A program made the translations under genes and the position numbers. Below, in pieces: positions 20,197-37,119 of a stretch of 53,025 nucleotides of DNA (the first letter of the stretch is position 1; each line of letters begins with the position of its first letter). This DNA is from a virus: the IMG/VR virus record IMGVR_UViG_3300029787_000071, positions 1 through 53,025 of that record, one strand, 5' to 3'. Below the pieces are notes generated by a model that worked only from the letters and a program-made list of their open reading frames with translations, did no database searches and was not told the origin of the DNA.

Positions 20197-20733
20197 TTAC
20201 TTCATCCTCGGTTTACGAATAGGTCCACCCATTCTACGGTTCATGGCATATACCTTGCCACCACCAGCTTTCTTTTGACTCTTATAAGCAGCGGCTCCTC
20301 TTCCAAGCTGAATGGCTTTGTCTGTAGCTTCTTTTAGCTCTTTGCTGCCCCCATAGGGTTTTCCCTCTTGAGAGGGTTCAGGATTTATCATGTTATCCAT
20401 GATAGATGCTACAGCACCACTAAAGCTTTTTTTAGCGGCTGCAATCTTTTCAGCCGTTAGCGGCGGTCTTGCTCTAGAACCAACGCGCTTTCCAACAGCA
20501 GCATCTGCTTGCGCTCTATCCATACCAGCTTTGGCCGCGCTTACTTTTGAGTTAAACCGCTTCTGCATCATACGCATCGCTTTTCTGCGCTGGGCGTTAG
20601 TAGCCCCTTCTTTTTTAGCAGACGCATCAAACTCTTTTAAAAGTGCACCCGGACTTCTACGCCCTTCAACTACTTTTTCTAACGCTTCGTCTAAATCTCT
20701 ATTTGTAATTTCAATTTTTCCAAATTTAGCCAT
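20197..20733 (-). CDS. Basic helical protein with C-terminal GGPIRKPRMK tag
   Basis: 178 aa. Mostly helical and basic (DEALEKVVEGRRSPGALLKEF; AQRRKAMRMMQKRF; ISAAKAGMDRAQADAAV-like segments), with a C-terminal end AGGGKVYAMNRRMGGPIRKP that resembles the GGGVRKP tag of neighbouring proteins. Its start shares one base with the stop of the cysteine-rich gene. Function unknown; structural or DNA-binding by composition. Confidence 0.6.
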   Translation of the reverse strand: MAKFGKIEITNRDLDEALEKVVEGRRSPGALLKEFDASAKKEGATNAQRRKAMRMMQKRFNSKVSAAKAGMDRAQADAAVGKRVGSRARPPLTAEKIAAAKKSFSGAVASIMDNMINPEPSQEGKPYGGSKELKEATDKAIQLGRGAAAYKSQKKAGGGKVYAMNRRMGGPIRKPRMK

Positions 20734-21040: not shown

Positions 21041-21068
21041 ATTATAACGTCTATATAGGACTTGTCAA
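21041..21068 (-). promoter_or_regulatory. Leftward sigma70 promoter of the late block
   Basis: On the minus strand TTGACA (21068-21063), 16-base spacer, TATAAT (21046-21041): both hexamers are perfect. It would start transcription about 21034, giving a leader near 105 bases before the cysteine-rich gene and then the structural genes. It mirrors the rightward promoter at 21110-21137. Confidence 0.85.
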
Positions 21069-21083
21069 GAAAAAAAGTTAAGC

Positions 21084-21103
21084 TGAGTGCAAATGAGTGC
21101 ATT
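21084..21103. promoter_or_regulatory. Phased direct repeat between divergent promoters (operator candidate)
   Basis: Two copies of TGAGTGCA, at 21084-21091 and 21094-21101, exactly 10 bases apart, one helical turn, so both face the same side of DNA. They lie between the two divergent promoters, about 15 bases from the leftward -35 box and 7 from the rightward one. This is a likely binding site for a regulator that controls both directions. Confidence 0.55.
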
Positions 21104-21109
21104 TTTTGC

Positions 21110-21137
21110 TTGACAGATTGGAAATGGGCTGTATAAT
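21110..21137 (+). promoter_or_regulatory. Rightward sigma70 promoter for the 2OG oxygenase gene
   Basis: TTGACA (21110-21115), 16-base spacer, TATAAT (21132-21137), perfect hexamers and the same spacing as the leftward partner. Transcription would begin near 21144, upstream of a GC hairpin and tandem repeats in the leader. Confidence 0.85.
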
Positions 21138-21237: not shown

Positions 21238-21248
21238 AAGGAATGAAT

Positions 21249-21884
21249 ATGGATAGTGCGCCTGAAGAAGTTGCAGAAGTTACAAGGCCGTGGTCCCTAT
21301 CCTCGTATACGTTTAACAGTTTCGCTCAGTATATTCAATATTTTAATCCTGATGAGTGTGAACAGTACATCCGTGATGCTCAAAAGGGTTTAAGAACTAC
21401 GTCATTTAAAAAAGGTGAGGTTGGTAGCCCAGAGGCTAACGCTAGTTTTGAATTAAGAAACTCCGATGTGTGTTTTTTCAAAACACATAAATCTGAAAAT
21501 AACCCCCTATTCTCAAAATTAACAGAAGTTCTGATAAATGCTAACCAATCCTTCTTTGGATATGACATTTTTGAGATAGAGGCTGCACAATTTTCTACAT
21601 ATTCTTCTGAATATAAAGGGTTTTATAATAAACATGTTGATATTATGCCTAATTCTTCTGGAATAGGCGTTAGAAAATTAAGTTTTAGTGTACAATTAAG
21701 CGACCCAGACTCGTACAAGGGCGGTGACCTTCTTTTACATACTACTAATAAACCCACTCAAGCTCCAAAAGAGATTGGAAGTGTAACTATATTTCCCAGC
21801 TTTACACTTCACGAGGTTACACCTGTAACAGAAGGTGTACGGTACTCATTAGTCGGCTGGGTAACAGGTCCAGCGTGGAAATAG
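21249..21884 (+). CDS. 2-oxoglutarate/Fe(II)-dependent oxygenase (PKHD type)
   Basis: 211 aa from ATG 21249, preferred to ATG 21243 because AAAAGGA is about 7 bases before it. Iron ligands H129-x-D131 (YNKHVDIMPN) and H188 (TLHEVTP), 2-oxoglutarate-binding R198 (GVRYSLVGW), and the strand GGDLLLHTTN before them define the prolyl-hydroxylase-like fold. It is a monocistronic gene driven by a consensus promoter with an elaborate leader, which suggests tightly controlled early expression. Substrate unknown; base or protein hydroxylation are both possible. Only distantly similar to the oxygenase at 3788-4423. Confidence 0.82.
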   Translation: MDSAPEEVAEVTRPWSLSSYTFNSFAQYIQYFNPDECEQYIRDAQKGLRTTSFKKGEVGSPEANASFELRNSDVCFFKTHKSENNPLFSKLTEVLINANQSFFGYDIFEIEAAQFSTYSSEYKGFYNKHVDIMPNSSGIGVRKLSFSVQLSDPDSYKGGDLLLHTTNKPTQAPKEIGSVTIFPSFTLHEVTPVTEGVRYSLVGWVTGPAWK

Positions 21885-22275
21885 CCCTAAATCATTGAAA
21901 AATAATAAAAAATTATTAAAAAAGGGTAAAAAATAGTAAAATTGTAGCGGGATTGCATACAGATATATACACCCCCCCGGTGGCCCATGCGCGCCCCTGT
22001 GATGCTAAGTATTTGTTTTTATTGTGTTAATCAATTATTCATAATATACACTGTGCGACTAAGCCCCCGCAGCGTTTCGACCCCCGGCTAATAGTCCGCG
22101 CCCCTCTCTTATACCTGCAGCCCCCCGCGCGTTGGGTCAACTAAACCGACAATTTCCCCCGGTGGCCATTTTGGTGGTGCTTTGATGGGGGTGGGGCGTG
22201 CAATACAAACCGCCTGATCCCGGTGGCCAGATTCAAAACGCTAGCAATATCCAAACGCTAGGCATTATTGCAGGC
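21885..22275. other. Non-coding region with C/G-rich repeats (origin candidate)
   Basis: About 390 bases without a credible gene. It begins with an AT-rich tract holding the inverted repeat AATAAT-AAAAA-ATTATT (about 21901-21920) and then has C/G runs. CCCGGTGGCC occurs three times (21976-21985, 22158-22167, 22219-22228) and AAACGCTAG twice (about 22237 and 22254). AT-rich tract plus repeats resembles a replication origin, but a control region or relic of recombination fits as well. No tRNA fold was found. Confidence 0.4.
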
Positions 22276-22302
22276 AAAAAAAAGGCCCCAATGAAGGGGC
22301 CT
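22276..22302 (-). terminator. Rho-independent terminator of the leftward accessory operon
   Basis: On the minus strand AGGCCCC-TTCATT-GGGGCCT (7-bp stem, 6-base loop) followed by eight T. It lies about 25 bases beyond the stop of the 22325 gene and ends the leftward operon before it meets the oxygenase transcript. Confidence 0.9.
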
Positions 22303-22324
22303 AAGTTTATTCTGGTTGGGGTTG

Positions 22325-22531
22325 TTATGCTGCGATGTAACGGGTTGCAATGTCGATGTCGCCCGGATCGATGGTGTATTCCGAACCCACAAAGCAAGCG
22401 ATCTGAGTCTTGGTCCCGCTCATATCGGTTGCGGTGATGTTTATCACGGTGAACTCGGTTTTGCTCCCGCGCTCGAACACCTCCCGGCTAAGGGCGATGT
22501 CGGTGATGTTGTGAAGTGAAAGCTTGTTCAT
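22325..22531 (-). CDS. Small hypothetical protein
   Basis: 68 aa, MNKLSLHNITDIALS..., acidic with alternating strands (KTEFTVINITATDMSGTKTQIACF). Starts 4 bases before the HNH gene stop (ATGA overlap) and is the last gene before a strong terminator. Unknown function. Codon use is more G+C-rich than in the structural genes. Confidence 0.6.
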   Translation of the reverse strand: MNKLSLHNITDIALSREVFERGSKTEFTVINITATDMSGTKTQIACFVGSEYTIDPGDIDIATRYIAA

Positions 22532-23181
22532 TGTGTTACCTCGATTAGCTGGCGTCTAGTGAATTTAGCAGGGCGATAAAGCTCCCCGCCGTTTCGATGT
22601 TTGGCGCGATTACAATTTGAGCAAAGTAGCTGCAACCCGCCGGGATTTTCGGTGAGGTATCGAATGTAATATCGAGGGTGCATTGAGGTTGCTTTCATAT
22701 GCTTTGCGCCCCAGTTTGCGTTTATCTTTTCACGATGTTCTGTACCATCATTATGCACATGATCGATTTCAAGATACATCGAATCTCGTTCCCCGCAGCA
22801 TGCGCAACGATTGCCGAGACGATCATATAATTCCTTTTTATCTCGTTTCCTGTATTTAACGGCGCGTTCTTTGCCATTAATCCTAATGCTATGCTTTTGA
22901 CATAACCTGTCCCCTAATCCGCGCACCATGCTTTGATGCGTGTATTTTTCATCACAGCCCGGATGCTCACAAACACCAGCGAAGTGCGTCGCCAGACAAT
23001 GGGAGTTACAATATTGGTTAGAACGTCCCCTTTTTGCGTCCTGCTTAACTTGTTTATCTTGTCGATAGAAAATTTTCCCGCAGTCCGGGTTATCGCATTG
23101 CACACGATATCTAAACCCACGTCTTGTAATGTTATGGTTTTTACCACAAGTCCAACTGATTTCTTCTCTCTCTAAGATCAT
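22528..23181 (-). CDS. HNH endonuclease
   Basis: 217 aa. The C-terminal half holds an HNH nuclease: CACCGERDSMYLEIDHVHND with the catalytic DH pair, and the second zinc pair CSNCNRAKHRNGG. The N-terminal half has two more zinc-type motifs (CDNPDCGK; CEHPGCDEKY). Such enzymes nick or cut DNA and may act as homing enzymes or in packaging. Here it is not next to the terminase and there is no intron sign, so a free-standing homing-type nuclease is likely. GAGGT precedes the ATG. Confidence 0.85.
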   Translation of the reverse strand: MILEREEISWTCGKNHNITRRGFRYRVQCDNPDCGKIFYRQDKQVKQDAKRGRSNQYCNSHCLATHFAGVCEHPGCDEKYTHQSMVRGLGDRLCQKHSIRINGKERAVKYRKRDKKELYDRLGNRCACCGERDSMYLEIDHVHNDGTEHREKINANWGAKHMKATSMHPRYYIRYLTENPGGLQLLCSNCNRAKHRNGGELYRPAKFTRRQLIEVTQ

Positions 23182-23190
23182 GATATTACC

Positions 23191-23280
23191 TCAAATGTCT
23201 TTGTTGAATGACCAAGCTTGCCACATGATGAAGATCAAAACGGCAAACGCTATTCCAAGTATGATCCAGTCGCTAAGCAT
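23191..23280 (-). CDS. 29-residue single-pass membrane peptide
   Basis: 29 aa: MLSDW, then a hydrophobic helix IILGIAFAVLIFIMW, then a short polar tail. Its ATG overlaps the upstream stop as TGATG, so translation by coupling is likely. Small membrane peptides of this kind are frequent in early phage regions; function unknown. Confidence 0.5.
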   Translation of the reverse strand: MLSDWIILGIAFAVLIFIMWQAWSFNKDI

Positions 23281-23642
23281 CACTCAACCCTCCCGTTGTC
23301 ATGGTCTGGGAAATGCTTGGTCCCGTAATATGTGCCATCGTCATGCTTGGCTTTGTACGGCTGCAAGTCCCATTCCTCGACCTGCGTCATATCCCGCCAG
23401 TCATCAATGCCGCAGGCTTCCATGAACTTGTCCGCATCGTAGCGGGGATTGTCCAAGCGGAATACGTTGTGGAAATCCACAGCGACGCTGTACATGGCAT
23501 TCCGCGCGGTGGCGGTGGCATATATCTCGTCTAGTTCGCTGTCTTCATTCCCGCCATATTCGAGGTCGTATTTGAGCTGGTTCAAATTGGTTCGCAGTAC
23601 GTAAGCGACGGTTTCAAAGTGCGATTTGCTAAAACGTGCCAT
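23280..23642 (-). CDS. Hypothetical phage protein
   Basis: 120 aa, acidic, beginning MARFSKSHFETVAYVLRTN and with DFHNVFRLDNPRYDADKFME. This combination of an N-terminal helix and NPR(Y/F)D motif recalls a common uncharacterised phage family. It lies downstream of a terminator and upstream of the tiny membrane peptide. Function unknown. Confidence 0.65.
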   Translation of the reverse strand: MARFSKSHFETVAYVLRTNLNQLKYDLEYGGNEDSELDEIYATATARNAMYSVAVDFHNVFRLDNPRYDADKFMEACGIDDWRDMTQVEEWDLQPYKAKHDDGTYYGTKHFPDHDNGRVE

Positions 23643-23664
23643 AGGTCTGTTTCCCTAATTGGTT

Positions 23665-23694
23665 AAAAAAAACCGCCCCCGGTGATGGGGACGG
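23665..23694 (-). terminator. Rho-independent terminator inside the accessory cluster
   Basis: Minus strand CCGTCCCC-ATCACC-GGGGGCGG followed by eight T: 8-bp stem (one G-U pair) with 6-base loop. It separates the 23725-25131 genes from 22325-23642, so the latter need read-through or their own promoter. Confidence 0.85.
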
Positions 23695-23724
23695 CTTATC
23701 ATTAGTCGATACAGGGTAAACCTG

Positions 23725-23961
23725 TCAACTGGTTTTATCTGCGATGCTTTCAAGCTTGTCAGATGTCTCCAGCACACCTTTAGCAAGCTCTTCGATCACG
23801 AGAGATTTCCCGCCGCGACCGCCGTACTTCTGCATTGCCGCTGGCGATTGGCTGGCCATCCGAAACTGGATCTCGGCAATCGCCTCCTGAGCATCGTTCG
23901 ACAAGAAGATTTGAGATCCGCCGTTGGTGGCGCTGGTGGTGGGGGTTTTCTTACTAGGCAT
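23725..23961 (-). CDS. Small hypothetical protein
   Basis: 78 aa, MPSKKTPTTSATNGG then a helical part (NDAQEAIAEIQFRMASQSP; SLVIEELAKGVLETSDKLE). AAGGAAAACC gives the ribosome site. It is followed by a terminator. No family recognised; possibly a small DNA- or protein-binding helper. Confidence 0.6.
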   Translation of the reverse strand: MPSKKTPTTSATNGGSQIFLSNDAQEAIAEIQFRMASQSPAAMQKYGGRGGKSLVIEELAKGVLETSDKLESIADKTS

Positions 23962-24063
23962 TGGTTTTCCTTTTCAAAGAATGAAGTGATAGACAATTAG
24001 ACAAACGACAGTGATAAGACACAATCGGTACGCGGCTTCAATAAATTCTATAGCTCCTCCTCC

Positions 24064-25131
24064 CTAGTTGATTGATTGCCAAGCGGGACCGGACATTACT
24101 AGCCAAAGGCCCCGCGCTCGTTCCATCTGCTCATTCAGCGTATACCCGCCGTGATCGGTGTTGATCATGTTGACCGATTTCCTACCAAGTGTGTGGGTTT
24201 TCTCTTCGCCGTCGATCTCAAACGTGCGGCTGTCGTGGGTGTGTGTCGCGTAATGGGTCAGCACATTGTACAAAGCCCATTTGTTTTTACCCAGACCACC
24301 GCCCTGCGAGTAGTCGCGGGAGTACTCATCCCACAGATCATAGAGCGCGTGAAACTTCTTTAGATTAATCGCTTCCTCGCGTTCGATCCCGTGCGCCTTT
24401 TCCCGCTCTAGTTTCTTTTGCCCTGCGATCTCTTTCGGGCAGATGCTTTTGAGAAAAGCGCCAGCGGTATCGTCCATAACGGGCGTCGCCTTCCACTCTT
24501 TGAACTGCTCTACATTCTGGCGGAATGTGCTGAATACGCTGTTGGCTGTACGCAACAGGGTGTTGGCGTCAAAGTGCTTAGAGTGTTTCACCTTGTTGTA
24601 TACTGCCTTGTCGCCACCGAACACCATGGAGTTCTCACAATAAGCCCGGTAAGCCCCGGCGAACTGCTGGAAAGCCCATTTAGAATTAACTGAATTGATC
24701 TGATCGGATCGGCAGTACACCATATCGCCGCCGCCTGTCATGTCCACGGCTTCGTCTAGATACTGAATAGAGCGTTTCGCCTTCATGCCAAAGTCGGTGT
24801 ATTCGTCACGGACCAGCACGTTGTCAGTGGGAAGATTACTTTCCCGCAGAATGTCGGCATGCTTACCAAACAATTCTATATGGTTTTCGAGGGTGTAGGT
24901 GCTGGATACCGCGCCGGGATCGGCGAGGCTTCCATCATGTGAGTACCGCAACGCCTTGCTGCCAGTGATCTCGGTGCCGTCCGCCGTATAGATATTGTCT
25001 TTGTACACTCCAAGCGGTTCAAAAAAGCTTAGATCAAATACATCGGAATGTTCGCGAACGGCGGAGGCTTTCACACCGTCATCGATGGTGGCGGGTATCG
25101 TCCGTGTCAAGTTCATTTGCATAACGTTCAT
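24064..25131 (-). CDS. DUF932-type phage/plasmid protein
   Basis: 355 aa, length typical of the family. Recognisable blocks are VFDLSFFEPLGVYKDN, AYCENSMVFGGDKAVYNKVKHSK with the C-x-NS motif, and FHALYDLWDEYSRDYSQGGG. DUF932 proteins are common in plasmids and phages and of unknown function, sometimes linked with DNA maintenance or host takeover. A putative promoter (25164-25192) is directly upstream, with AGGAAA before the ATG. It is more G+C-rich than the flanking replication genes, suggesting acquisition. Confidence 0.8.
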   Translation of the reverse strand: MNVMQMNLTRTIPATIDDGVKASAVREHSDVFDLSFFEPLGVYKDNIYTADGTEITGSKALRYSHDGSLADPGAVSSTYTLENHIELFGKHADILRESNLPTDNVLVRDEYTDFGMKAKRSIQYLDEAVDMTGGGDMVYCRSDQINSVNSKWAFQQFAGAYRAYCENSMVFGGDKAVYNKVKHSKHFDANTLLRTANSVFSTFRQNVEQFKEWKATPVMDDTAGAFLKSICPKEIAGQKKLEREKAHGIEREEAINLKKFHALYDLWDEYSRDYSQGGGLGKNKWALYNVLTHYATHTHDSRTFEIDGEEKTHTLGRKSVNMINTDHGGYTLNEQMERARGLWLVMSGPAWQSIN

Positions 25132-25163
25132 TTCTGGTTTCCTATGTTGGTTGAACGAGGAAA

Positions 25164-25192
25164 GCCCTACAGCATATTCAAGGCAGTGTCAA
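25164..25192 (-). promoter_or_regulatory. Promoter candidate for the DUF932 gene (TTGACA-N17-TAGGGC)
   Basis: Perfect -35 TTGACA (25192-25187), 17-base spacer, -10-like TAGGGC (25169-25164), preceded by an A-rich tract. The -10 is far from consensus, but similar TAGG hexamers occur at the same distance at two other gene starts in the window. Confidence 0.5.
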
Positions 25193-25219
25193 ATACTTTT
25201 TTAATCTGTACAGGATGGA

Positions 25220-25335
25220 CCCGGCGGGAGCGTCGGTCAGGGAGGAAACTTGGCCCCCGCCGGGGAGGTGCAGGGGGAGAACCAGAAAACCCTGCACTAA
25301 CTAATGTAAAGGCCGACAAATTTATAGGCCGACAA
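25220..25335. other. Structured intergenic DNA upstream of the DUF932 promoter
   Basis: Inside the 300-base gap 25132-25431. It has an inverted repeat CCCGGCGGG (25220-25228) / CCCGCCGGG (25256-25264), a second perfect 8-bp stem GTGCAGGG / CCCTGCAC (25268-25275, 25290-25297) and the direct repeat AGGCCGACAA (25310-25319, 25326-25335). It may end the upstream transcript or bind a regulator; a small RNA is possible. Confidence 0.4.
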
Positions 25336-25431
25336 TTTTCTATCTCAGATAATGATCCCTCACCCACTCATACCAAGTGGGAGTATTTGGTTTCATGTTT
25401 TCATACCGTATTACATCCTCCATAGCGTGCA

Positions 25432-25959
25432 TTACGCAACTTCTCCATACATATCAAACCAAGCTGGTTCAGAACGATTAGTCCATTTAGCAAAGTATGC
25501 TTTCTCACCACGGTAGTACGCCCTGTAAGCTGATATAGTATCATCAAATGATGCGGTATTAGGATTACACTTATATTCATCAGGCATACATTGTGGTGGT
25601 GGCGTGTGCATAGCCATAGATCTTTTATATGGTATGTTATTAGGTGAATAGTGTAGCCACTCCTTAGTAGCAGCTTTGTGTACCTTGCCATAGCGATGCG
25701 TATACTCATTCCCAAGATAGCCCCATAGGTCCGACAAATAATTGTAGTTACCACGCCCTAATCTTGCCCATGCTGTAGAAGGATGGTTCTTGTGGGCTAT
25801 CTGATATAAGCCTTCGCGGTCAGCAGCCCCATCACCATCAATTACCCTATGTGCAGTAGATAGGATTTGTGCATACTCCAGAACCATTTTAACTACATGC
25901 TTGTCACAGTGCATCTGCGCTGCAATCTTGGGGTTTCTGTCTAGATAGAATATATTCAC
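25432..25959 (-). CDS. Pyrimidine-dimer DNA glycosylase-like protein
   Basis: 175 aa from GTG 25959, chosen because GGAGG lies just upstream and the GTG overlaps the upstream stop as GTGA; a longer start at 25974 would bury the ribosome site. The N-terminus NIFYLDRNPKIAAQMHCDK followed by HVVKMVLEYAQILSTAHR is the signature of phage proteins grouped with T4 endonuclease V (Pyr_excise) in my memory. It may repair UV damage, useful in surface sea water. Catalysis could not be confirmed from residues alone. Confidence 0.6.
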   Translation of the reverse strand: MNIFYLDRNPKIAAQMHCDKHVVKMVLEYAQILSTAHRVIDGDGAADREGLYQIAHKNHPSTAWARLGRGNYNYLSDLWGYLGNEYTHRYGKVHKAATKEWLHYSPNNIPYKRSMAMHTPPPQCMPDEYKCNPNTASFDDTISAYRAYYRGEKAYFAKWTNRSEPAWFDMYGEVA

Positions 25960-26111
25960 TGTTGTTCCTCCCACCGTATATCTACAAGTTTAATGGCTAA
26001 TATTTCTTTCTCACCTTGAGATACATTAGCCAAGTCTAAATCTATCATAGCCTCATTATACAACTCAGCTATTTTATCTTCGTTACTTCCCTCAGTCTCA
26101 GGCACACTCAT
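25956..26111 (-). CDS. Small acidic protein
   Basis: 51 aa (MSVPETEGSNEDKIAEL...), helical and acidic. Preceded by GGAG, and its stop overlaps the GTG of the glycosylase-like gene (GTGA), which supports coupled translation. Unknown function. Confidence 0.6.
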   Translation of the reverse strand: MSVPETEGSNEDKIAELYNEAMIDLDLANVSQGEKEILAIKLVDIRWEEQQ

Positions 26112-26136
26112 TTTGGTTCTCCATTGTGGAGGCTTG

Positions 26137-26166
26137 GTCCTAGCACATTCGGATAGGGGCGGTCAA
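26137..26166 (-). promoter_or_regulatory. Promoter candidate for 25956-26111 (TTGACC-N18-TAGGAC)
   Basis: -35 TTGACC (26166-26161), 18-base spacer, -10-like TAGGAC (26142-26137), with an A-tract upstream, as at 25164-25192. Found in the 77-base gap 26112-26188. Confidence 0.4.
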
Positions 26167-26188
26167 GCTTTTTTTTAATCTGCGTAGA

Positions 26189-26368
26189 CTAATCTTCTGC
26201 GTTACTAACCAGCGGTCCTAGATAAGCCACCATGCGGTGATGGTCCACAAGTAAACTGGACAATAATCTTTTTGATACTGTTACACTTTTTTTACGACCA
26301 TCGCCGTCTACAATCTCGTGTATGTTTTGTAGTTCTTCTTTTGAAGTTTCTAGGCTTATCTGTCTCAT
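26189..26368 (-). CDS. Small hypothetical protein
   Basis: 59 aa, MRQISLETSKEELQNIHEIV, with a basic helical centre (RKKSVTVSKRLLSSLLVDHH). Its ATG is directly adjacent to the stop of the 26369 gene. No family recognised. Confidence 0.5.
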   Translation of the reverse strand: MRQISLETSKEELQNIHEIVDGDGRKKSVTVSKRLLSSLLVDHHRMVAYLGPLVSNAED

Positions 26369-26593
26369 TTACTTTATCTCAGTTATTACCCAACGTCCAC
26401 GTTCTGCTAGGTGAGGAAAACGTCTAGCCCAATCTTTAGGATAGATACCTAACTCACCTTCATACTTCCACTCCCAGCGCAGCGTCTTACCATCGTAAGC
26501 GCGGGTACTGTATTCGGGGTCCGGTCTTTTTTTACGATGAGAAGTTTTGTACTTGCTTTTTTTATGTGGAGAAGTTTTACTCATTTCCGACAT
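26369..26593 (-). CDS. Small hypothetical protein
   Basis: 74 aa. A lysine-rich N-terminus (SPHKKSKYKTSHRKKRPD) precedes an aromatic C-terminal half (TLRWEWKYEGELGIYPKDW). The start overlaps the end of the nuclease-like gene by 13 bases. Could bind nucleic acid; unproven. Confidence 0.55.
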   Translation of the reverse strand: MSEMSKTSPHKKSKYKTSHRKKRPDPEYSTRAYDGKTLRWEWKYEGELGIYPKDWARRFPHLAERGRWVITEIK

Positions 26594-26883
26594 TTTATCT
26601 GTCCTGTATCAATGTTGTAATAGACCAGTTCTACACCTAGTTTCTTCTGAATGGAAGATAGCTGACGATTAATCATCGTACCCGGCTTCCAATTAGCAGT
26701 CTCGGAACGGAACGACATTGTTTTTACCTCGACAAGTTTTACGTCTTTTGTTTCAGGATTTATGGCGACAAAATCTACAGGCCCAGTATTGTTCGTTTCA
26801 TTGTACACATGGTATCCAATGTCTGCGTAATATCGCATCACGCCTAGCTTTGACTGTAGACCCTTCTTCTCTTTGACATTCAT
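26581..26883 (-). CDS. PD-(D/E)xK nuclease-like protein
   Basis: 100 aa. GPVDFVAINPETKDVKLVEVKT has the D-(x)n-ExK arrangement of the PD-(D/E)xK nuclease core, with a helix before it (GVMRYYADIGYHVY) and NRQLSSIQKKLGVELVYYN after, as in Hjc-like or VRR-type nucleases. It may resolve or cut branched DNA. It is next to the GcrA-like gene. Confidence 0.6.
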   Translation of the reverse strand: MNVKEKKGLQSKLGVMRYYADIGYHVYNETNNTGPVDFVAINPETKDVKLVEVKTMSFRSETANWKPGTMINRQLSSIQKKLGVELVYYNIDTGQIKCRK

Positions 26884-26884
26884 A

Positions 26885-27292
26885 TCAGTACGACACTCTA
26901 TAGTCTTCTACAGGGGACTTGTAATTAGCACCAGACTTACATCTATCACACACAAACATGACTTTGTGCAGTAGTTTTTCTTTCCGACAAGATAAGCACT
27001 TTCTAACTCTGTACTGATCTTTGTTTCTCATGTTTTGTCTTGCACTCTCTAGTTGTTCGACAACTGTAGAAAAATCTACACGTTTTGGTTTCTTTTTACC
27101 CATGTAAGTAAACTGATTAGCATATCTATTCAAAATACCTATTACAGCATTTCTTGACATATCCACGCCATTGTAGTCTTTGTACTTAGGTGACATTACC
27201 TCTGCAATTTGACGGGCTGACAGACTACGCTCTCTGCTTAGTCGAAATATCTCTGTTATAAACTCGTCTTTGTGTTTTCTTGTGGCTACCAC
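26885..27292 (-). CDS. GcrA-like transcriptional regulator with zinc ribbon
   Basis: 135 aa, GTG start with AAGGA 8 bases upstream. Residues about 23-56 (SLSARQIAEVM, then SRNAVIGILNRY) match the helix-turn-helix of GcrA, the alphaproteobacterial cell-cycle regulator that binds sigma70 polymerase and methylated GANTC sites. A C-terminal zinc ribbon follows: C99, C102, C115 and C118. GcrA itself has a different C-terminal part, so target choice may differ. It could redirect host polymerase to phage promoters. Inferred from motifs. Confidence 0.65.
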   Translation of the reverse strand: MVATRKHKDEFITEIFRLSRERSLSARQIAEVMSPKYKDYNGVDMSRNAVIGILNRYANQFTYMGKKKPKRVDFSTVVEQLESARQNMRNKDQYRVRKCLSCRKEKLLHKVMFVCDRCKSGANYKSPVEDYRVSY

Positions 27293-27386
27293 TTATCTTT
27301 TCCTTATCAAACCAACAACTTGCACATAGTTTTTGACCATTCCTTGTTACAACTGCCATATCGTTGCACTCTTCACAGTTAACCAT
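27225..27386 (-). CDS. Small zinc-ribbon protein
   Basis: 53 aa with CxxC pairs NCEEC (residues 4-7) and LCASC (21-24), spaced as in a zinc ribbon; basic C-terminal tail. It overlaps the start of the GcrA-like gene by 68 bases and the stop of the upstream gene by 8. The cysteine pattern is why I accept it despite the overlap. Confidence 0.5.
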   Translation of the reverse strand: MVNCEECNDMAVVTRNGQKLCASCWFDKEKISGSHKKTQRRVYNRDISTKQRA

Positions 27387-27618
27387 CAACGCACTCCTCT
27401 GGGTTTTTTAAGGATAGGTTACATATTTGATTTAGACAGTGTGTGATAAGCAGAATACCATGCTTGTCACTCGGCGCATGACTCATCACTGAAAGCATAG
27501 ACTGTATCAACGCAGATTCTGTTACACTTAAAGTATCCTCAAACTCCTCTAGACATAGATTGATTTCTGCCTCTACACGAGAGGCTACAATTTGTCTTTC
27601 TTCTTCAGATAAATTCAT
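27379..27618 (-). CDS. Small acidic helical protein
   Basis: 79 aa from ATG 27618 (MNLSEEERQIVASRVEAEI); ATG 27630 is the alternative. Helical, with CLEEFEDTLSVTESALIQSM. Overlaps the previous gene's stop. No domain recognised. Confidence 0.55.
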   Translation of the reverse strand: MNLSEEERQIVASRVEAEINLCLEEFEDTLSVTESALIQSMLSVMSHAPSDKHGILLITHCLNQICNLSLKNPEECVDG

Positions 27619-27895
27619 GTTTGATCCCATCGACTATCAGTGAGTTAATTTTAGTAAGATTGACATTTCTATACCCTTTGGCATAATTGTCATAGACAGT
27701 CATCATTTGTTTGTTGGTATTACAATCTCTGCCGCCCTTCTTGTGCTTCTCGACACCAAGACGGCCATTAATTTTACGGATGCTGCCATCCGACTTGACA
27801 AACTCGATTGTAAAGAATTTATCCTGAACCGTGGCCTCGATTATTCGGCGCATCATGTCCGGGTTTTCTACTTTGCTTCCATATAGGGTGATCAT
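27605..27895 (-). CDS. SH3-like beta-barrel phage protein
   Basis: 96 aa. The block KHKKGGRDCNTNKQMMTVYD followed by GYRNVNLTKINSLIVDG matches a frequent small phage family described as SH3 beta-barrel fold proteins. It may bind protein or nucleic acid. It is the first gene of the leftward early operon, just after the promoter at 27925-27953. Confidence 0.65.
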   Translation of the reverse strand: MITLYGSKVENPDMMRRIIEATVQDKFFTIEFVKSDGSIRKINGRLGVEKHKKGGRDCNTNKQMMTVYDNYAKGYRNVNLTKINSLIVDGIKHEFI

Positions 27896-27924
27896 GGCTC
27901 ACCTCTGCTGTTGAAGGAAGCTGC

Positions 27925-27953
27925 ACCATACATGAGATTTTTTTGAGTGTCAA
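27925..27953 (-). promoter_or_regulatory. Leftward early promoter
   Basis: TTGACA (27953-27948), 17-base spacer, TATGGT (27930-27925). It lies 30 bases before the SH3-like gene, in the short region between divergent operons. Confidence 0.65.
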
Positions 27954-27965
27954 GCGAAAATATAT

Positions 27966-27994
27966 TTGACATGCTGAAAAATCCATGCTAGGAG
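27966..27994 (+). promoter_or_regulatory. Rightward replication-operon promoter candidate
   Basis: TTGACA (27966-27971), 17-base spacer, TAGGAG (27989-27994), within the sequence CATGCTAGGAGGC. The -10 is poor by sigma70 rules but has the TAGG form seen at 25164 and 26137. The primase ATG at 28033 lies about 33 bases further. Confidence 0.45.
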
Positions 27995-28032
27995 GCATGT
28001 TGCCGTGTCCCGAAATTGAGGATATTATATTT

Positions 28033-28821
28033 ATGAATAATATAATTAAAGATTATATCTATAATCTAGATATACCTCTTGGTACTTCTAAAAGATTAGA
28101 CTGTCCTGTATGTGATGGAACTAATACTCTATCTGTTACTCAGTTTAGTGATTGTATAAAATACTATTGCTTTCATGCAAACTGTAGTAAGGGTGGTGTA
28201 ATTAAGGAGGGACTAAGTGCATCCTCTTTCTCTGCACACGATGAAATCCTAAAACCACATGAACCTGTAGGGCTTGAGATAGAAAAACAGAACTGGCGCA
28301 AGAATAATTATCCTATACATTTCTTTGAGTACATTAGAAGAAACAATTGTACTTCTGCTTGGTCAAAGGGATTAGCTGACATACGGTATGACTACAAGCG
28401 AGACAGGGCTGTATTTCTTGTAAAAGATAGAGCAAAGATAGTTGATGCTGCTGGTAGGTACATCGGGTCCGGTCTGCATTCAGGACCAAAATGGTACAGA
28501 TACGGCGGAAGCAAGCTGCCGTTTATTTGCGGTAAACATGATCAAGCGGTGATTGTAGAGGATTGTGCATCAGCGGCATCTATATCAGGTTTTGCAACAG
28601 GTGTGGCGCTACTAGGCACATTTCTACAAGATGAGGCTTTATCTGAACTGGATGGGTTTGAAAAGATTACTGTAGCGTTAGACAAAGATGCCTCAGATAA
28701 ATCTGTGGACATTGCACTAAGACTGAACGCTGCATACGGAGACATTGTTGATGTGTGTCTTTTGGATAGAGACTTGAAAAGATTAACTGAGGATGAAGCA
28801 AAGGAGGTACTAAAGATATGA
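28033..28821 (+). CDS. DNA primase with zinc finger and TOPRIM-like domain
   Basis: 262 aa from ATG 28033, with GAGGA 10 bases upstream; an in-frame ATG at 27985 gives 16 more residues but lacks a well-spaced ribosome site. Zinc finger C24, C27, C46, C51 (CPVC...CFHANC), then a TOPRIM-like core with VIVEDCASA and VALDKDAS providing acidic metal ligands. It makes RNA primers at the replication fork with the helicase, whose gene overlaps by 4 bases. It is the first gene of the rightward operon. Confidence 0.85.
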   Translation: MNNIIKDYIYNLDIPLGTSKRLDCPVCDGTNTLSVTQFSDCIKYYCFHANCSKGGVIKEGLSASSFSAHDEILKPHEPVGLEIEKQNWRKNNYPIHFFEYIRRNNCTSAWSKGLADIRYDYKRDRAVFLVKDRAKIVDAAGRYIGSGLHSGPKWYRYGGSKLPFICGKHDQAVIVEDCASAASISGFATGVALLGTFLQDEALSELDGFEKITVALDKDASDKSVDIALRLNAAYGDIVDVCLLDRDLKRLTEDEAKEVLKI

Positions 28822-30008
28822 TTGATAAGGCTGTGCTTGTAGCATGTCTACAGAAGGACAACTTCAATCGTGTATCTGGTTTAATTAAGAAGGAGTATTT
28901 CTCAAAGGAGGTGGCTACCATTGTAGAAACTATTAGCCATCTACACAAAACATACGAGGGTGATCTCTCACTAGCTGATGTAGCATTGGCACATGATGAG
29001 CGTTATCCGGCCATGCCTGAAGCGACTAAGCAAAAGGCTACACAACAATTAGACGAACTAAAAGGCATAACAGTAAACCCTGAACTGGCAGGAAATGTTC
29101 TGCATAGTTTTTGGAAACGAGCAAAGGCAAAAGAGATAGGAGAAGAAGCCCTTGACATATTTCTTGGTAAATCTAGCGATACTTACTCTCTGCTTACTAG
29201 TGTAGAAGAACTAAAGAACAATGAGGTTAAAGGCTCCAAGAGCTACACAGTGCTTGAGGACAACATTGAAGATAGCTTGGAAGAGTTCGAGCGTGATCCT
29301 GAGTTCATCTTTCCTACACAGATACGCGACTACGTACCCGGCATAGACCGACAAAATCTTGGTGTGATCTTTGCACGGCCAGAGATAGGTAAGACAAGTT
29401 TTTCTGCGTGGCTATCCGGCTGGTATGTGCGGAACAAGTTTCATGTAGCATACTGGGGTAACGAAGAACCTGTGAAGAAGACTCGTATGCGTGTTGCTAA
29501 ATCTATTACAGAACGCTCTCGTCTCGAAGTTCTGCAGGACAAGCAGGGTTTTGTACAGGAGTATCAAGAGAACATACTACCATACATATCCTTCATGGAT
29601 TGTGTTGGTACGTCCATACAAGAGGTTGAGGACTACTGCTCACGCAATGAAGTTGACGTAGTATTCATTGACCAGCTAGATAAGATCAGGATCGATGGTG
29701 AGTTCTCACGCGGCGATGAGCGGCTGAAGGAGTTGTACTGCAGGTCCAGAGAGCTTGCCAAGCGGCATAACGTGGCAGTGTGGGCAATCTCCCAAGCGTC
29801 GTATGATGCTCACGGAAGAGAGAGTATAGACTATTCCATGCTTGATGGTAGTAAGACAGGCAAGGCTGGTGAAGCAGATATCATTGTGGGTATTGGTGTA
29901 GCGGAACATGAAGAGTTTAGAACCATTAAGTTCTCGAAGAACAAGATAAATGGTTGGCATGGGTCGTTGGTTTTACGGCGAGATGGTGATAGAGATATAT
30001 TCTCATGA
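28818..30008 (+). CDS. DnaB-like replicative helicase
   Basis: 396 aa. Walker A ARPEIGKTS at 186-194, Walker B VDVVFIDQLD at 279-288 and the downstream VAVWAISQAS mark a RecA-fold, DnaB/T7 gp4-type hexameric helicase. The N-terminal 150 residues form helical bundles as in DnaB. Primase and helicase are separate, unlike T7 gp4. Overlaps both neighbours by 4 bases (ATGA type). Confidence 0.88.
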   Translation: MIDKAVLVACLQKDNFNRVSGLIKKEYFSKEVATIVETISHLHKTYEGDLSLADVALAHDERYPAMPEATKQKATQQLDELKGITVNPELAGNVLHSFWKRAKAKEIGEEALDIFLGKSSDTYSLLTSVEELKNNEVKGSKSYTVLEDNIEDSLEEFERDPEFIFPTQIRDYVPGIDRQNLGVIFARPEIGKTSFSAWLSGWYVRNKFHVAYWGNEEPVKKTRMRVAKSITERSRLEVLQDKQGFVQEYQENILPYISFMDCVGTSIQEVEDYCSRNEVDVVFIDQLDKIRIDGEFSRGDERLKELYCRSRELAKRHNVAVWAISQASYDAHGRESIDYSMLDGSKTGKAGEADIIVGIGVAEHEEFRTIKFSKNKINGWHGSLVLRRDGDRDIFS

Positions 30009-30559
30009 TCACCATTCTCGACATAGAAACTACAATGAACTTTGAAAGTTCTACATCATCTCCGTATGATGGTCAGCAGATTGTATTTGTTGGCTACAGA
30101 AGTTTTACGCCAGACCTGTCAGTGTTCGAAAGCAATGAGTTGTTTTTCTTTCACAACCAGTGTGAGCCTACACCTCAAGCAAAAGACAGGCTGCAGAAAA
30201 AGTTAGATGAAACAACCTGCTTAGTTGGTCACAACTTGAAGTTTGATTTGCAGTGGCTAAGAGAGTGTGGCTTTCAGTACGATATGTTTTTGTGGGATAC
30301 TATGATAGCTGAGTACCTACTTTGTCGTGGTATCAAAAAATCAATTAGCCTTGCAGAATGTGCCAAGCGCAGGGGCCTGTCTGAAAAAAGAGTGGACCTT
30401 ACTGACAATTATATCAAGGACAAAGTATCCTACGAAGATATGCCGTGTGATATAGTTAGAGAGTATTGTATGGCTGACGTAAATACAACGACTCAATTAG
30501 CCAAAGAACAACTAGCAGAACTAGACATGTCTTGGCCTAGCAAGGAGAGCCTAGTTTGA
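30005..30559 (+). CDS. 3'-5' exonuclease (DEDD family), separate proofreading subunit
   Basis: 184 aa. Exo I LDIETT, Exo II GHNLKFDLQWL and Exo III YCMADVNTT give the four acidic metal ligands of the DEDDy class. In most family A polymerases this domain is fused; here it is a separate gene ending inside the polymerase start (30556-30559). It would proofread replication, probably bound to the polymerase. Confidence 0.88.
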   Translation: MITILDIETTMNFESSTSSPYDGQQIVFVGYRSFTPDLSVFESNELFFFHNQCEPTPQAKDRLQKKLDETTCLVGHNLKFDLQWLRECGFQYDMFLWDTMIAEYLLCRGIKKSISLAECAKRRGLSEKRVDLTDNYIKDKVSYEDMPCDIVREYCMADVNTTTQLAKEQLAELDMSWPSKESLV

Positions 30560-32094
30560 AACAAGTTGTAAAACTTAGTATGGAGATGCTAGACGTTCTC
30601 ATCGACATTGAGAGAGCAGGAATAAAGATATCAAATGAAAAACTTGCAAAGATTAAAGCGGACTATCAAGCAGAATATGATCAGCTATACAGTGACCTTA
30701 TGGATATCGCTGAGATTGCTATGGGAGATACTCCGATCAACCTTGATAGCCCTGATGACCGCAGTAAGCTGCTATATTCCCGCGAGGTGGTGGACAAGAC
30801 TGCGTGGAAAGAAGCGTTTAATATAGGAACAGAGCAGCGCGGACATACCAAGAAACAAAAGCGTAAAACAAAAATGTCTCCTACAATGTTTAAGGAGACA
30901 GTGAAAGATTTAGCCCCTGTGTTCCGCAAGACCAGAGGCGAGAGGTGTGAGGACTGTGGTGGCACAGGCCGTAAAAGAAACAGACTAAAGTCTGGCGAGT
31001 TAAGCAAAAACACCGTGAAGTGTAAAACTTGTGGTGGCACAGGCGTTGTCTATGTAAAGTTAAACGAGCCAGCAGGATTAAGGGTCATACCTCGTGGACC
31101 ACAGGATACCGCCGCTGCAGGTTTTAGAACAGATAAAGAAACTTTGTCCGAGATACGTCTTGAGTTAGAGGGCAAGGCAAGAGAGTTCGTGGACAAGTAC
31201 ACACGTTACTCAATGATAAGAACGTACCTCAATACGTTTGTAGATAGCTTGGAGAAGTATCAAGATGATAGAGGTTTTATTCATCCTAACTTTAATCAGT
31301 GCGTCACTGCTACTGGAAGACTGTCGTCAAGTAGACCAAACTTTCAGAATATGCCGAGAGGAGCAACATTCCCTGCAAGAGAAGCGATTGTTTCTAGGTA
31401 TGAAGGTGGTTATATTTTAGAAGGCGACTACTCACAGCTAGAGTTTCGTGTGGCTGGCTATTTATCACAAGACCCTGTAATCTATAAAGAGGTAAAGAGT
31501 GGCTTCGATGTACACTCTTACACCGCTGAGATCATGGGGGTTAATCGTCAGGACGCAAAGGCTCACACCTTCAAGCCGCTGTATGGTGGTGTGCTTGGGA
31601 CTAATCGGGAGATGGCTTATTACTCTGCTTTCCGTAACAAGTATCAGGGTGTGACTGAGTGGCACGACAAGCTGCAAGAAGAAGCAGTAACAGACAAACA
31701 GGTTGTTCTACCATCTGGTAGGGAGTACGCTTTTCCCTATGCAAAGTATACTAGGTATGGTACAACTGTTGGATCAACATCGATCAAGAACTATCCGGTG
31801 CAGGGTTTTGCTACGGCAGACCTCTTACCATTAGCCCTGATAAGGCTTCACAAGTCTTTGAAAGAGATGGTAAATCCTGTTCCAAAAAGTAAAATAATTA
31901 ACACGGTCCACGATTCCATAATCATGGACGTTCACCCTGACGAAAAAGATTGGATGGTTGAATTATTAAAAAGGAGTATGTTGTGTATACCTGAAGAATG
32001 TAGTAGAGAGTTTGGTATTGACTTTGATATGCCCATTGAGATAGAACTCAAAATGGGTACTGATTGGCTTAATCTAGAGGAGCTAGAAATATGA
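30556..32094 (+). CDS. Family A DNA polymerase with DnaJ-type zinc finger
   Basis: 512 aa, start TTG 30556 (the next in-frame ATG gives 9 fewer residues). Residues 131-164 hold two CxxCGGTG motifs (C131, C134, C156, C159), as in the central domain of DnaJ, before the polymerase domain. Motif T is TATGRLSSSRPNFQN (251-265), motif A has D291 (EGDYSQLEFR), the O helix has R331, K335, F339 and YG at 343-344, and motif C is VHDS (451-454, D453). F339 matches Pol I Phe762. The exonuclease is a separate gene. This layout recalls the HMO-2011 phage polymerase. Confidence 0.93.
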   Translation: MKQVVKLSMEMLDVLIDIERAGIKISNEKLAKIKADYQAEYDQLYSDLMDIAEIAMGDTPINLDSPDDRSKLLYSREVVDKTAWKEAFNIGTEQRGHTKKQKRKTKMSPTMFKETVKDLAPVFRKTRGERCEDCGGTGRKRNRLKSGELSKNTVKCKTCGGTGVVYVKLNEPAGLRVIPRGPQDTAAAGFRTDKETLSEIRLELEGKAREFVDKYTRYSMIRTYLNTFVDSLEKYQDDRGFIHPNFNQCVTATGRLSSSRPNFQNMPRGATFPAREAIVSRYEGGYILEGDYSQLEFRVAGYLSQDPVIYKEVKSGFDVHSYTAEIMGVNRQDAKAHTFKPLYGGVLGTNREMAYYSAFRNKYQGVTEWHDKLQEEAVTDKQVVLPSGREYAFPYAKYTRYGTTVGSTSIKNYPVQGFATADLLPLALIRLHKSLKEMVNPVPKSKIINTVHDSIIMDVHPDEKDWMVELLKRSMLCIPEECSREFGIDFDMPIEIELKMGTDWLNLEELEI

Positions 32095-32927
32095 GCGATA
32101 TGATTACGATGGACGATCTGAACGAAGAGAACATGGCTAAACTTGCAGCTATGGTCGGTCAGACTGAAACACGTTCAAACGTGCAACAGGGACTACCCCG
32201 GCTAGCAATTGAACAACAGGCAGACAACGATGACGGTGAGCCGTTGCCAAAGGGCAGCTTCCGTATTCGTCTGGACAACAATACTGTGTATGCTAAGGAG
32301 ATCTCTGTGCGGATGTTTGTCCGCTACTACTCCTATGATTTGTGGAACCAACAGTCTCCTGAAGATTCTATCAGGACTGTTCTCGCTCCGTCTCTGAGTG
32401 ATGACTTCCCTGATACAAGTGGTGGTATGAAGTGTGGTAAACTGAACAAGCAAGAAGTTGAAGCTCTGTCAACTAACTCGCTTGAACATGCTAAACAGAA
32501 AAGCATCAAGTGTACGCAGGTTATATATGGTGTTATAACAGGTGCTAAAGATGCTACAGACACTACTGGTGAGTCTGTTGATCTCAAAGGCACTCCCTTT
32601 ATCTGGTCTGCCCGTGGTTCTGCATTCATGCCAGTGGCTAACTACATTCGTGAAGTGCCTTCCAACAAAATTATCTTTGGTCAGAAGGTTAACATTGCCA
32701 CCAAGCGTAATAAGAATGGAGGCATCACGTACTACACTCCAGTGTTTGATAAGCCGCAGCCTGTAAAGATTGTGGATGAGGATGTAGAAACTCTCAATAC
32801 TTTTATGAAGGACATTGAGAGGTGGAACGAGCGTGTACTCAAACAGTACAGCGAACGTAAGGAAAACGTGCTTGCTATGGATGACTTAGATGTAGCAAAA
32901 GCGTTGGAAAATGCAGAGGCCATCTAA
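32091..32927 (+). CDS. Unidentified replication protein, possible ssDNA-binding protein
   Basis: 278 aa. Acidic N-terminus (MSDMITMDDLNEENMAKL) then a beta-rich middle (GSFRIRLDNNTVYAKEISVRMFVR; QVIYGVITGAKDA) and an acidic end (MDDLDVAKALENAEAI). Position between polymerase and exonuclease, beta-rich core and acidic tail recall T7 gp2.5, but no residue pattern proves it. It overlaps both neighbours by 1-4 bases. Confidence 0.55.
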   Translation: MSDMITMDDLNEENMAKLAAMVGQTETRSNVQQGLPRLAIEQQADNDDGEPLPKGSFRIRLDNNTVYAKEISVRMFVRYYSYDLWNQQSPEDSIRTVLAPSLSDDFPDTSGGMKCGKLNKQEVEALSTNSLEHAKQKSIKCTQVIYGVITGAKDATDTTGESVDLKGTPFIWSARGSAFMPVANYIREVPSNKIIFGQKVNIATKRNKNGGITYYTPVFDKPQPVKIVDEDVETLNTFMKDIERWNERVLKQYSERKENVLAMDDLDVAKALENAEAI

Positions 32928-33817
32928 TGACCTCAATGCTGCTACATAAAGTACAGCATTTCCTAGAAAAAGCGTCGAGGGGTGAAGGCGAAGGTCTTCC
33001 CCCTCATCTCATCAACGAATTTAAGGAGATGTGTGGCTCCGCTATCGAACGTCAGTTCAGTGAAAAGCGTGGTTCAAAAGTACGTATGTCTGGCGTAGGC
33101 AAGCCTCTATGCCAGCAAAAGTTATCCGCAAGAGATGACATAGAAGAAGATGTAGACTACACAATGGTTATGAAGTTTCTGTTTGGAGACATCATAGAGG
33201 CTATAGCAGTAACAGTTATGAAAGCTGCAGGTGTAAATATACAGAGTGAACAGGAAGGCGTTAGCCTAGACATTGGTGGCACCACATTGCGTGGCACATA
33301 CGATGTCAAAATAGATGATAAGATATATGATATAAAGAGTGCTGCTCCCGGTGCATTCTCTATGAAGTTTGCGGCTAATCGTGGGTACAACAACATCAAG
33401 AAGGACGATGTGTTTGGCTATGTGCCGCAGGGCTACCTGTACGCAGAGGCGGCTGGCTCTACCTTTGGTGGCTGGATAGCTATCAACAAGGCTACAGGCG
33501 AGTGGGCGGTATGTGAGACGCCGCTGGTGCAGGATGAAGATAGAGAAGCAGCCCTAAAATTAGCCGATAAAAATATACGCAGTGTTCTTGGTAGTGAGAA
33601 GTTTGAGCGTTCTTTTTCCGATGAACCTGAAACCTACAAAGATAAAGAGACAGGAACCCTTAAAAGAACAGGCAACCGGCTTATGAATAGAACCTGTTCT
33701 TACTGTGGTTTTAAGATGCACTGCTGGCCTAATGCTGCATACAAACAGAAGACAACTTCTACAGCAAATACTCGACCGAGAGTATGGTACACAAAGCATG
33801 TAAAGGATGAAATCTGA
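32927..33817 (+). CDS. Cas4/AddB-like exonuclease with Fe-S cysteines
   Basis: 296 aa. The PD-(D/E)xK core is GTYDVKIDDKIYDIKSA with D126, D135 and K137. One early cysteine (C62, GKPLCQQK) and three late cysteines in a C-x2-C-x5-C pattern (C257, C260, C266) match the iron-sulfur site of Cas4 and AddB nucleases. Likely a single-strand exonuclease for recombination or host DNA breakdown, the role of T7 gp6. Next to the resolvase gene. Confidence 0.75.
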   Translation: MTSMLLHKVQHFLEKASRGEGEGLPPHLINEFKEMCGSAIERQFSEKRGSKVRMSGVGKPLCQQKLSARDDIEEDVDYTMVMKFLFGDIIEAIAVTVMKAAGVNIQSEQEGVSLDIGGTTLRGTYDVKIDDKIYDIKSAAPGAFSMKFAANRGYNNIKKDDVFGYVPQGYLYAEAAGSTFGGWIAINKATGEWAVCETPLVQDEDREAALKLADKNIRSVLGSEKFERSFSDEPETYKDKETGTLKRTGNRLMNRTCSYCGFKMHCWPNAAYKQKTTSTANTRPRVWYTKHVKDEI

Positions 33818-34233
33818 TGCCACTATATATTACAGAGACTATCACTGAGTTTGAAACAATGTTCAACCCAAAAGCTGCCTTCGTATACTTTGATACAGAT
33901 AAAGGAGATAGCACACACATAGATGCTCTACTAGTAAAATCTCTACACGAGAACATGCAGCTTCCAATTATATATAGAAAGAACATGTCTTCGGAGGGTA
34001 TGTGGACTGCAGAAGAGTTTAACTATGAAGGTTCTAGGAAAATGTCCCGCTGCTTTGATGCCATACGTTCTATGCTAAGACAAAGCAGGTTAGTAGTATT
34101 TCCATCTAGAAGTTTTTCTATTGTAAGAGATACGTCTCCTGAGTATGTACAGAAAGATTTAGGAGAGGGTTACATACAGATAGTAAACACTAACCCTGAA
34201 AATAAAAATAAGTTTGATTACTATGCGTTTTAG
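33817..34233 (+). CDS. Hypothetical protein in the replication operon
   Basis: 138 aa, MPLYITETITEFETMF, with a Rossmann-like alternation (AAFVYFDTDKGDSTHIDALL; RQSRLVVFPSRSFSIVR) but no recognised motif. Start overlaps the exonuclease stop (TGATG); the end overlaps the resolvase start. Probably replication-linked by position. Confidence 0.6.
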   Translation: MPLYITETITEFETMFNPKAAFVYFDTDKGDSTHIDALLVKSLHENMQLPIIYRKNMSSEGMWTAEEFNYEGSRKMSRCFDAIRSMLRQSRLVVFPSRSFSIVRDTSPEYVQKDLGEGYIQIVNTNPENKNKFDYYAF

Positions 34234-34582
34234 ATCAAAGTTTGAGTCAGAAGTTGCTGTAGCTATAAGCCGTATGGGTATTAGTTGGGAGTTTGAACCC
34301 GATAAGATACCATACCAGCCTGATCCCAAAGTCTACATACCTGACTTCTACATACCTCGTAATGATATATACATAGAAGTAAAAGGACGACTGACACAGC
34401 AGGACAGAGTAAAGCACCTGCTTGTTAAGAAACAGAACCCGGACACTGAAGTGAAGTTCTTCTTCGCTAATGCTAATAAAAAAATATACAAGGGTTCAAA
34501 GACTACCCATGCAGATTGGGCAGAGCGCCACGGATTTGATTGGGCGCATAAAAAGATACCTGTGGAGTGGTTTGATGAATGA
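34223..34582 (+). CDS. Endonuclease I-like Holliday junction resolvase
   Basis: 119 aa from ATG 34223. Matches T7 gp3: an N-terminal glutamate (SKFESEVA), D41 (YIPDFYI), E52 and K54 (IEVKGR), then QQDRVKHLLVKKQNPD and FFFANANKKIYKGSKTTHADWA. It resolves branched DNA, needed to debranch DNA before packaging and to break host DNA. Length is close to T7's 149 aa but shorter. Confidence 0.88.
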   Translation: MRFRSKFESEVAVAISRMGISWEFEPDKIPYQPDPKVYIPDFYIPRNDIYIEVKGRLTQQDRVKHLLVKKQNPDTEVKFFFANANKKIYKGSKTTHADWAERHGFDWAHKKIPVEWFDE

Positions 34583-37112: not shown

Positions 37113-37119
37113 TGTAAAC

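Follow-up and report, generated by a model that had tools for sequence, protein, structure and literature searches.

The analysis of a viral DNA stretch of 53,025 nucleotides, referred to as the window, revealed a gene for a small protein in which a DNA-binding helix-turn-helix (HTH) of the GcrA type is followed by a C-terminal zinc ribbon. The likeness to GcrA, a core cell-cycle regulator in Alphaproteobacteria, is genuine but confined to the N-terminal HTH. We consider it somewhat better than an even bet (about 0.55) that this HTH-ribbon protein is an early phage DNA-binding transcription regulator acting via its ribbon. The relevant features of the gene are as follows.

26885..27292, minus strand: HTH-ribbon gene, GTG start, 135 aa, GcrA-type HTH and zinc ribbon
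27125..27268, minus strand: predicted HTH, residues 9-56, inside the part matching GcrA residues 3-44
27167..27193, minus strand: 9-residue insertion relative to GcrA, SPKYKDYNG, about residues 34-42, between helix 2 and the recognition helix
26936..27013, minus strand: zinc ribbon, residues 94-119 (C99, C102, C115, C118), in the place of the GcrA sigma-interacting domain

The open reading frame occupies positions 26885-27292 exactly, as given in the first-pass annotation, and by reading an AAGGA stretch is found 8 bases 5′ of the GTG start. Viral contigs (IMG/VR) were scanned with the window protein, its alignments or parts of these. Of the 47 loci confirmed in the widest scan, six (L176-L181) match by the ribbon alone; the other 41 carry the gene for the HTH protein, in a few cases cut short by a contig end. 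The family alignment contains 26 sequences, the window protein and those from public viral contigs, with identities to the window protein of 28-94%. The dN/dS ratio of the gene was 0.11-0.14 in the four of five pairwise comparisons with unsaturated dS; the fifth (L157), in which dS was saturated, was left out. These values therefore indicate purifying selection and, together with the 26 aligned relatives, show that the reading frame is a genuine gene and not a chance one. The same computation gave 0.025-0.037 for the helicase, which is under stronger constraint, and 0.07-0.17 for the primase, which is roughly equal. In divergent loci the identity of the HTH-ribbon protein drops to 33-38%, while that of the helicase is still 75-79%.

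Scans of the window protein against Pfam, NCBIfam and PHROG named no family. The best weak match was PHROG 16311, a family of unknown function (E 0.0051), which was matched by 23 of the 26 family members at E≤1 with a best E of 0.0007. No convincing homologue was found by tblastn in 50,697 phage records with the window protein, the HTH alone or two divergent relatives as queries, and a genome-contig profile search with the family alignment gave no match. When the family profiles were searched against PDB sequences, nothing came out under E 0.02, and GcrA chains were not among the matches.

The relation to GcrA was revealed by profile comparisons with a reference set of 86 GcrA proteins, 80 bacterial and 6 from phages. 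The bacterial proteins were partly collected via the peptide NAVIGKVH, whose perfect conservation in that set is therefore biased; the Pfam model PF07750 offers a check independent of this bias, and its matches are weak. An HMM of the GcrA DNA-binding domain ranked the HTH-ribbon reading frame first among 835 window ORFs (E 4.8e-5; runner-up 0.048). With hhalign, an 11-sequence family alignment matched GcrA with a probability of 94.7 and a score of 51.2 (best of 200 column shuffles 21.9), and the 26-sequence alignment with a probability of 96.6 and a score of 64.6 (best of 200 shuffles 20.9). The profile-profile alignment places family residues 7-58 on GcrA residues 3-44, with the 9-residue insertion. 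GcrA of Caulobacter and other Alphaproteobacteria (PF07750) and the phage family thus share a DNA-binding domain at the N-terminus and, within it, the recognition-helix pattern TRNxVIG..xR, the helix itself reading TRNAVIG in GcrA and [ST][RK]NxVI[GS] in the phage family. Unlike GcrA, the phage family has the insertion, a four-cysteine C-terminal ribbon, no sigma-interacting domain and a Pfam score below the cut-off. A PF07750 scan gave no hit for the window protein (E≤5) and none for the window as a whole (E≤10); the Caulobacter control in the latter scored positive. When the 26 members were scanned at E≤10, GcrA was matched by 11 (best E 0.0025) and the next families by five each; judging from these E-values, the members probably fall below the curated cut-off of 26.9 bits. 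The match to the GcrA profile, on which the first-pass annotation had made its assignment depend, is thus poor for the curated Pfam model but not for the DNA-binding half when profiles are compared with each other.

The AlphaFold2 model built from 26 sequences had a mean pLDDT of 76.8 (86-88 in the HTH blocks and 82-85 in the blocks covering the ribbon), with helices at residues 9-21, 26-41, 47-56 and 74-86 and strands at 94-98 and 105-109. An earlier model from 11 sequences (pLDDT 50.3) was set aside for it. Structural comparison with VIA-align covered mainly residues 1-68 and barely touched the ribbon fold. The GcrA DNA-binding domain (5yiu) was aligned over 46 residues with Z 6.0, an rmsd of 4.3 and 35% identity, the top identity in the list; small terminases and DeoR/SorC HTHs reached Z 6.7-7.6 at lower identity. 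Foldseek gave no match at E≤0.001 in BFVD and PDB. HTH folds are common. Taken together, the structure list and the identities show that the fold identifies the N-terminus as an HTH and the sequence identifies it as one of the GcrA type. We count it against the regulator reading that small terminases and DeoR/SorC HTHs score equally well or better than GcrA in structure. The small terminases of phages G20c and P74-26 are in fact the top structural neighbours (Z 7.3-7.6), which could mean that the protein is itself a small terminase subunit. This is very improbable: the structural match is limited to the HTH (residues 6-63), the HTH-ribbon reading frame has no TerS match at E≤5, and another ORF, at 17180-17608 and close to the large subunit, is a separate candidate (phrog_51 E 6e-6; Terminase_2 E 0.00096, below the cut-off).

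The C-terminal half is where the phage family and GcrA part. In Caulobacter, according to the partial text of PMC7403470, GcrA consists of a DNA-binding domain (residues 1-45), a linker (46-107) and a sigma-interacting domain (108-173), the last of which binds sigma region 2. Both motif and profile comparisons indicated that this domain (CKWPIG ... FCG ... YC ... H) is missing from the phage family. The C[KR]WP motif was found in 82 of the 86 GcrA proteins and in none of the 26 family members, the cysteines are arranged differently, and the two C-terminal parts have no profile similarity (hhalign probability 0.1). In its place the window protein carries C99-x2-C102-x12-C115-x2-C118, and a C-x2-C-x(10-14)-C-x2-C pattern is present in 26 of 26 family members as against 0 of 86 GcrA proteins. 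The four cysteines suggest that the ribbon binds a zinc ion. The first-pass annotation had described a GcrA-like regulator with a different C-terminal zinc ribbon: the GcrA-type DNA-binding HTH and the ribbon were borne out, while the sigma-binding half has no place in the protein. Its proposal of sigma70 cofactor action is not sustained, since the domain that binds sigma region 2 has no counterpart by profile or motif (0/26). The protein could still be a true GcrA-type sigma70 cofactor if its sigma-binding surface had diverged past recognition. The GcrA-type DNA-binding domain is in keeping with this, as is the existence in other phages of homologues spanning most of GcrA (see below; PMC3556154, partial text), but the C-terminal profile, motif and cysteine data speak against it. 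Among the readings built on GcrA we favour this one least, because the sigma-binding half is missing, and we give it little chance.

Phage-encoded GcrA homologues as such are known. They have been described in phiCbK-like phages (PMC3556154; PMC9437464), where they are Pfam members (PMC3556154), in an Agrobacterium phage (PMC6630229) and in a brucellaphage (PMC11836647), as far as the partial texts of these papers go. Like the window gene, those of phiCbK-like phages and of Synechococcus phage Ssp-JY42, as annotated, are phage genes with a GcrA-type DNA-binding domain. A tblastn search with a GcrA query matched 33 phage records, in 30 of which the match covered 80% of the query or more; judged by this coverage, the other phage homologues retain the GcrA C-terminus, unlike the HTH-ribbon family. 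The 26-member profile found its best match among the 86 GcrA proteins in the Ssp-JY42 protein (L023; E 0.0005), which also has extra residues preceding the recognition helix. Protein QJA43130.1 of Phaeobacter phage MD18 likewise has a GcrA DNA-binding domain without the sigma-interacting domain, its first 45 residues being 71% identical to the GcrA query; it differs in having no insertion, no zinc ribbon and another C-terminus. In the open literature searched we found no paper linking GcrA with HMO-2011 and none on GcrA, bacteriophage and zinc ribbon together. What is new is how the domains are combined and that the gene for them keeps a fixed position in this marine lineage.

The surroundings of the gene in the window are listed below.

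27605..27895, minus strand: WYL_2-like gene (PF10902), 96 aa, first of the leftward operon
27225..27389, minus strand: Cys-rich ORF, 54 aa, overlapping the start of the HTH-ribbon gene
26581..26883, minus strand: 100-aa gene, next downstream, PHROG 5018, nuclease-like by very weak matches and reading
27925..27953, minus strand: promoter-like site of the leftward operon, TTGACA-17-TATGGT, no GANTC
27966..27994, plus strand: putative back-to-back promoter-like site toward the replication genes, TTGACA-17-TAGGAG
27985..32094, plus strand: divergent replication genes, namely primase, DnaB-like helicase, exonuclease-like ORF and DNA polymerase A with a DnaJ-type central motif

The HTH-ribbon gene lies in a leftward operon, divergent from the replication genes, which judging from its position is probably expressed early. 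Synteny was examined in 16 loci against 27 genes of the window; the HTH gene is present in 14 of the loci. In 13 of these 14 the WYL_2-like gene lies upstream, in 13 the 100-aa gene lies downstream, and in 13 the primase is divergent; the exceptions fall at contig ends (L185 upstream, L182 downstream). The 54-aa Cys-rich ORF is found in some relatives (for example L007 and L161) and in none of L008-L011, where the HTH-ribbon gene begins directly after the WYL_2 gene. A frameshift joining this ORF to the HTH-ribbon gene was rejected on the ground that the ORF is missing in L008-L011.

The constant neighbour and the ribbon itself lead to the strongest rival explanation, that the protein serves a phage nuclease or replication complex as its DNA-binding accessory; HTH and ribbon would target or clamp DNA for the 100-aa protein and have no role in transcription. 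In the six ribbon-only contigs from other uncultured phages (L176-L181) a nearly identical ribbon, RKCLSCRKEILLERNIFICDQCKK, with 53% identity to that of the HTH family over 30 aa, stands behind a nuclease-like domain and without the HTH. That domain resembles Hjc (E 0.0067, below the cut-off, one member scanned), and by tblastn it matched annotated phage VRR-NUC and Holliday-junction proteins, the best VRR-NUC among the matches listed having E 2e-9. The ribbon is thus joined to an Hjc/VRR-NUC-like domain there and to an HTH in the window family, and we count this fusion against the regulator reading since it suggests a role other than transcription. The neighbourhood of the 100-aa gene in every locus not cut by a contig end points the same way. 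However, this gene is nuclease-like on very weak matches only (VRR_NUC E 0.13; NERD E 0.12 in L007), small zinc ribbons serve many purposes, and the GcrA likeness suggests promoter DNA. We therefore regard an accessory role in a nuclease complex as unlikely, if less so than the other alternatives.

The divergent region between the operon and the replication genes contains TTGACx-N17-TAxxxT in 12 of 13 loci, with close relatives among them. A single match of this kind was rejected as meaningful in itself, for 31 promoter-like sites were counted in 21500-38600 as against 32.8 expected by chance. Because such sites occur at chance number, the promoter argument rests on this pattern being conserved across those 12 loci. 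No GANTC is present in this region in any of the 13 loci. Of the two options in the first-pass annotation, reliance on host methylation or on none, the former is thus not supported for GANTC at the promoter of the gene. As the operon appears to have its own sigma70-type promoter, its transcription can probably begin without the HTH-ribbon protein. Elsewhere, at 21041-21137, where the structural genes are followed by a 2OG-Fe(II) oxygenase gene (21243-21884), two consensus TTGACA-16-TATAAT promoter-like sites facing apart were noticed; a second 2OG-Fe(II) oxygenase gene is located at 3788-4423. By reading, the structural-region ORFs 16425-17006, 17605-18132, 18524-18889, 19577-19978 and 20197-20733 have short motifs in common that are basic and rich in glycine, for example YAKGGGVRKP and MAKGGK. 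Also by reading, the product of ORF 49279-50100, starting with KIIIPFSGGVNSTYTL, resembles a PP-loop ATPase; it gave no Pfam or PHROG match at E≤0.001.

Alphaproteobacteria are the hosts of the isolated HMO-2011-type podoviruses, the marine group to which the phage belongs. Its polymerase A (PF00476, E 1.1e-51) has two visible CXXCXGXG motifs and matches DnaJ_CXXCXGXG with E 5.3e-5 and 23.8 bits, below the cut-off of 32.7; a partial DnaJ central domain in a family A polymerase marks HMO-2011-type phages, a group described as dominant in the sea (PMC9038755, partial text). The polymerase matches with at least 80% coverage were 12 records of 11 HMO-2011-type phages (HMO-2011 twice), including Pelagibacter phage HTVC033P (47%), CRP roseophages and HMO-2011 of SAR116. 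Over the replication genes, the gene order is like that of HTVC033P and HMO-2011. The exonuclease-like part (30005-30559) and the polymerase (30556-32094) are two overlapping genes in the window, and likewise in relatives such as L007 and L008, whereas HTVC033P and HMO-2011 have a single longer polymerase gene; the name exonuclease is suggested by the position of the first part relative to the fused polymerase of HMO-2011. Homologues of the HTH-ribbon protein were found neither in the whole records of HTVC033P, HMO-2011, CRP-1 and CRP-235 nor in 50-kb stretches of these four and of CRP-3 and CRP-738.

GANTC is depleted across the whole window, most strongly in the early (24064-27895) and replication genes. 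Compared with synonymous-codon shuffles, the early genes contain 2 sites against 7.9 expected (O/E 0.25), the replication genes 10 against 26.5 (0.38) and the late genes 58 against 86.4 (0.67), and in each case none of 500 shuffles was as low. By the same test, from which one gene of L008 and one of L168 with out-of-frame coordinates were dropped, O/E was 0.00-0.39 in six relatives, and 1.13 (early) and 0.83 (late) in HTVC033P. In a z-score comparison with 15 control patterns, GANTC scored -5.2 in the window and the lowest control -5.3; because some controls reach equally low values in several genomes, the codon-shuffle test is the better evidence. The GANTC-free stretch 22781-27480 was not accepted as significant alone (rough hand estimate about 0.06). 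HMO-2011-type phages without a detected homologue are depleted too (O/E 0.47 in CRP-3, 0.21 in CRP-235 and 0.27 in CRP-738), and the partial text of PMC9516812 reports depletion in about half of 33 pelagiphages. For this reason the depletion points to a GANTC-methylating alphaproteobacterial host and not to this protein, and it was rejected as proof of a link to GcrA. The alphaproteobacterial host named in the first-pass annotation is upheld, on the better evidence of phage group and GANTC depletion and not of the HTH-ribbon gene itself. Its statement that no DNA adenine methylase gene is seen also agrees with our scans, in which the N6/N4 methylase, D12 methylase and Dam families (PF01555, PF02086, PF05869) were not found in the window.

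These data bear on two further explanations. According to the first, the protein would compete with host GcrA, holding methylated-GANTC host promoters without being able to recruit sigma70 and so disturbing the host cell cycle. The recognition helix is kept, the sigma-interacting domain is missing, and a GANTC-poor genome, poorest in the early genes, would spare the phage's own DNA. The same depletion in phages without a detected homologue and in pelagiphages tells against it, and the DNA specificity may be altered by the insertion and by the substitutions K39I/L and H41N; we consider such competition improbable. Marginally more doubtful still is a wider version, in which HMO-2011-type phages carry a GcrA mimic without the sigma-binding domain that seizes methylated GANTC promoters and shuts off or redirects GcrA-driven cell-cycle transcription, GANTC-poor early phage DNA being spared and the ribbon serving as a swappable effector module fused to a nuclease elsewhere.

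For the early regulator that we prefer, the domain composition, operon position and conservation of the gene were shown by computation, and the time of expression, the DNA target and the partner can be proposed from them. The protein would be made early from a sigma70-type promoter needing no GcrA-type help. Its recognition helix would bind particular DNA sites and its ribbon may contact RNA polymerase, another protein or DNA, with the outcome that transcription of phage, and perhaps host, genes would be shifted. Tethering to sigma70 region 2 in the manner of GcrA would not be expected.

A GcrA-type binder without the sigma half, fixed opposite the replication genes, offers a small testable handle on the takeover of hosts that are hard to culture. 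The family would also be evidence that the DNA-binding domain of GcrA can move as a module.
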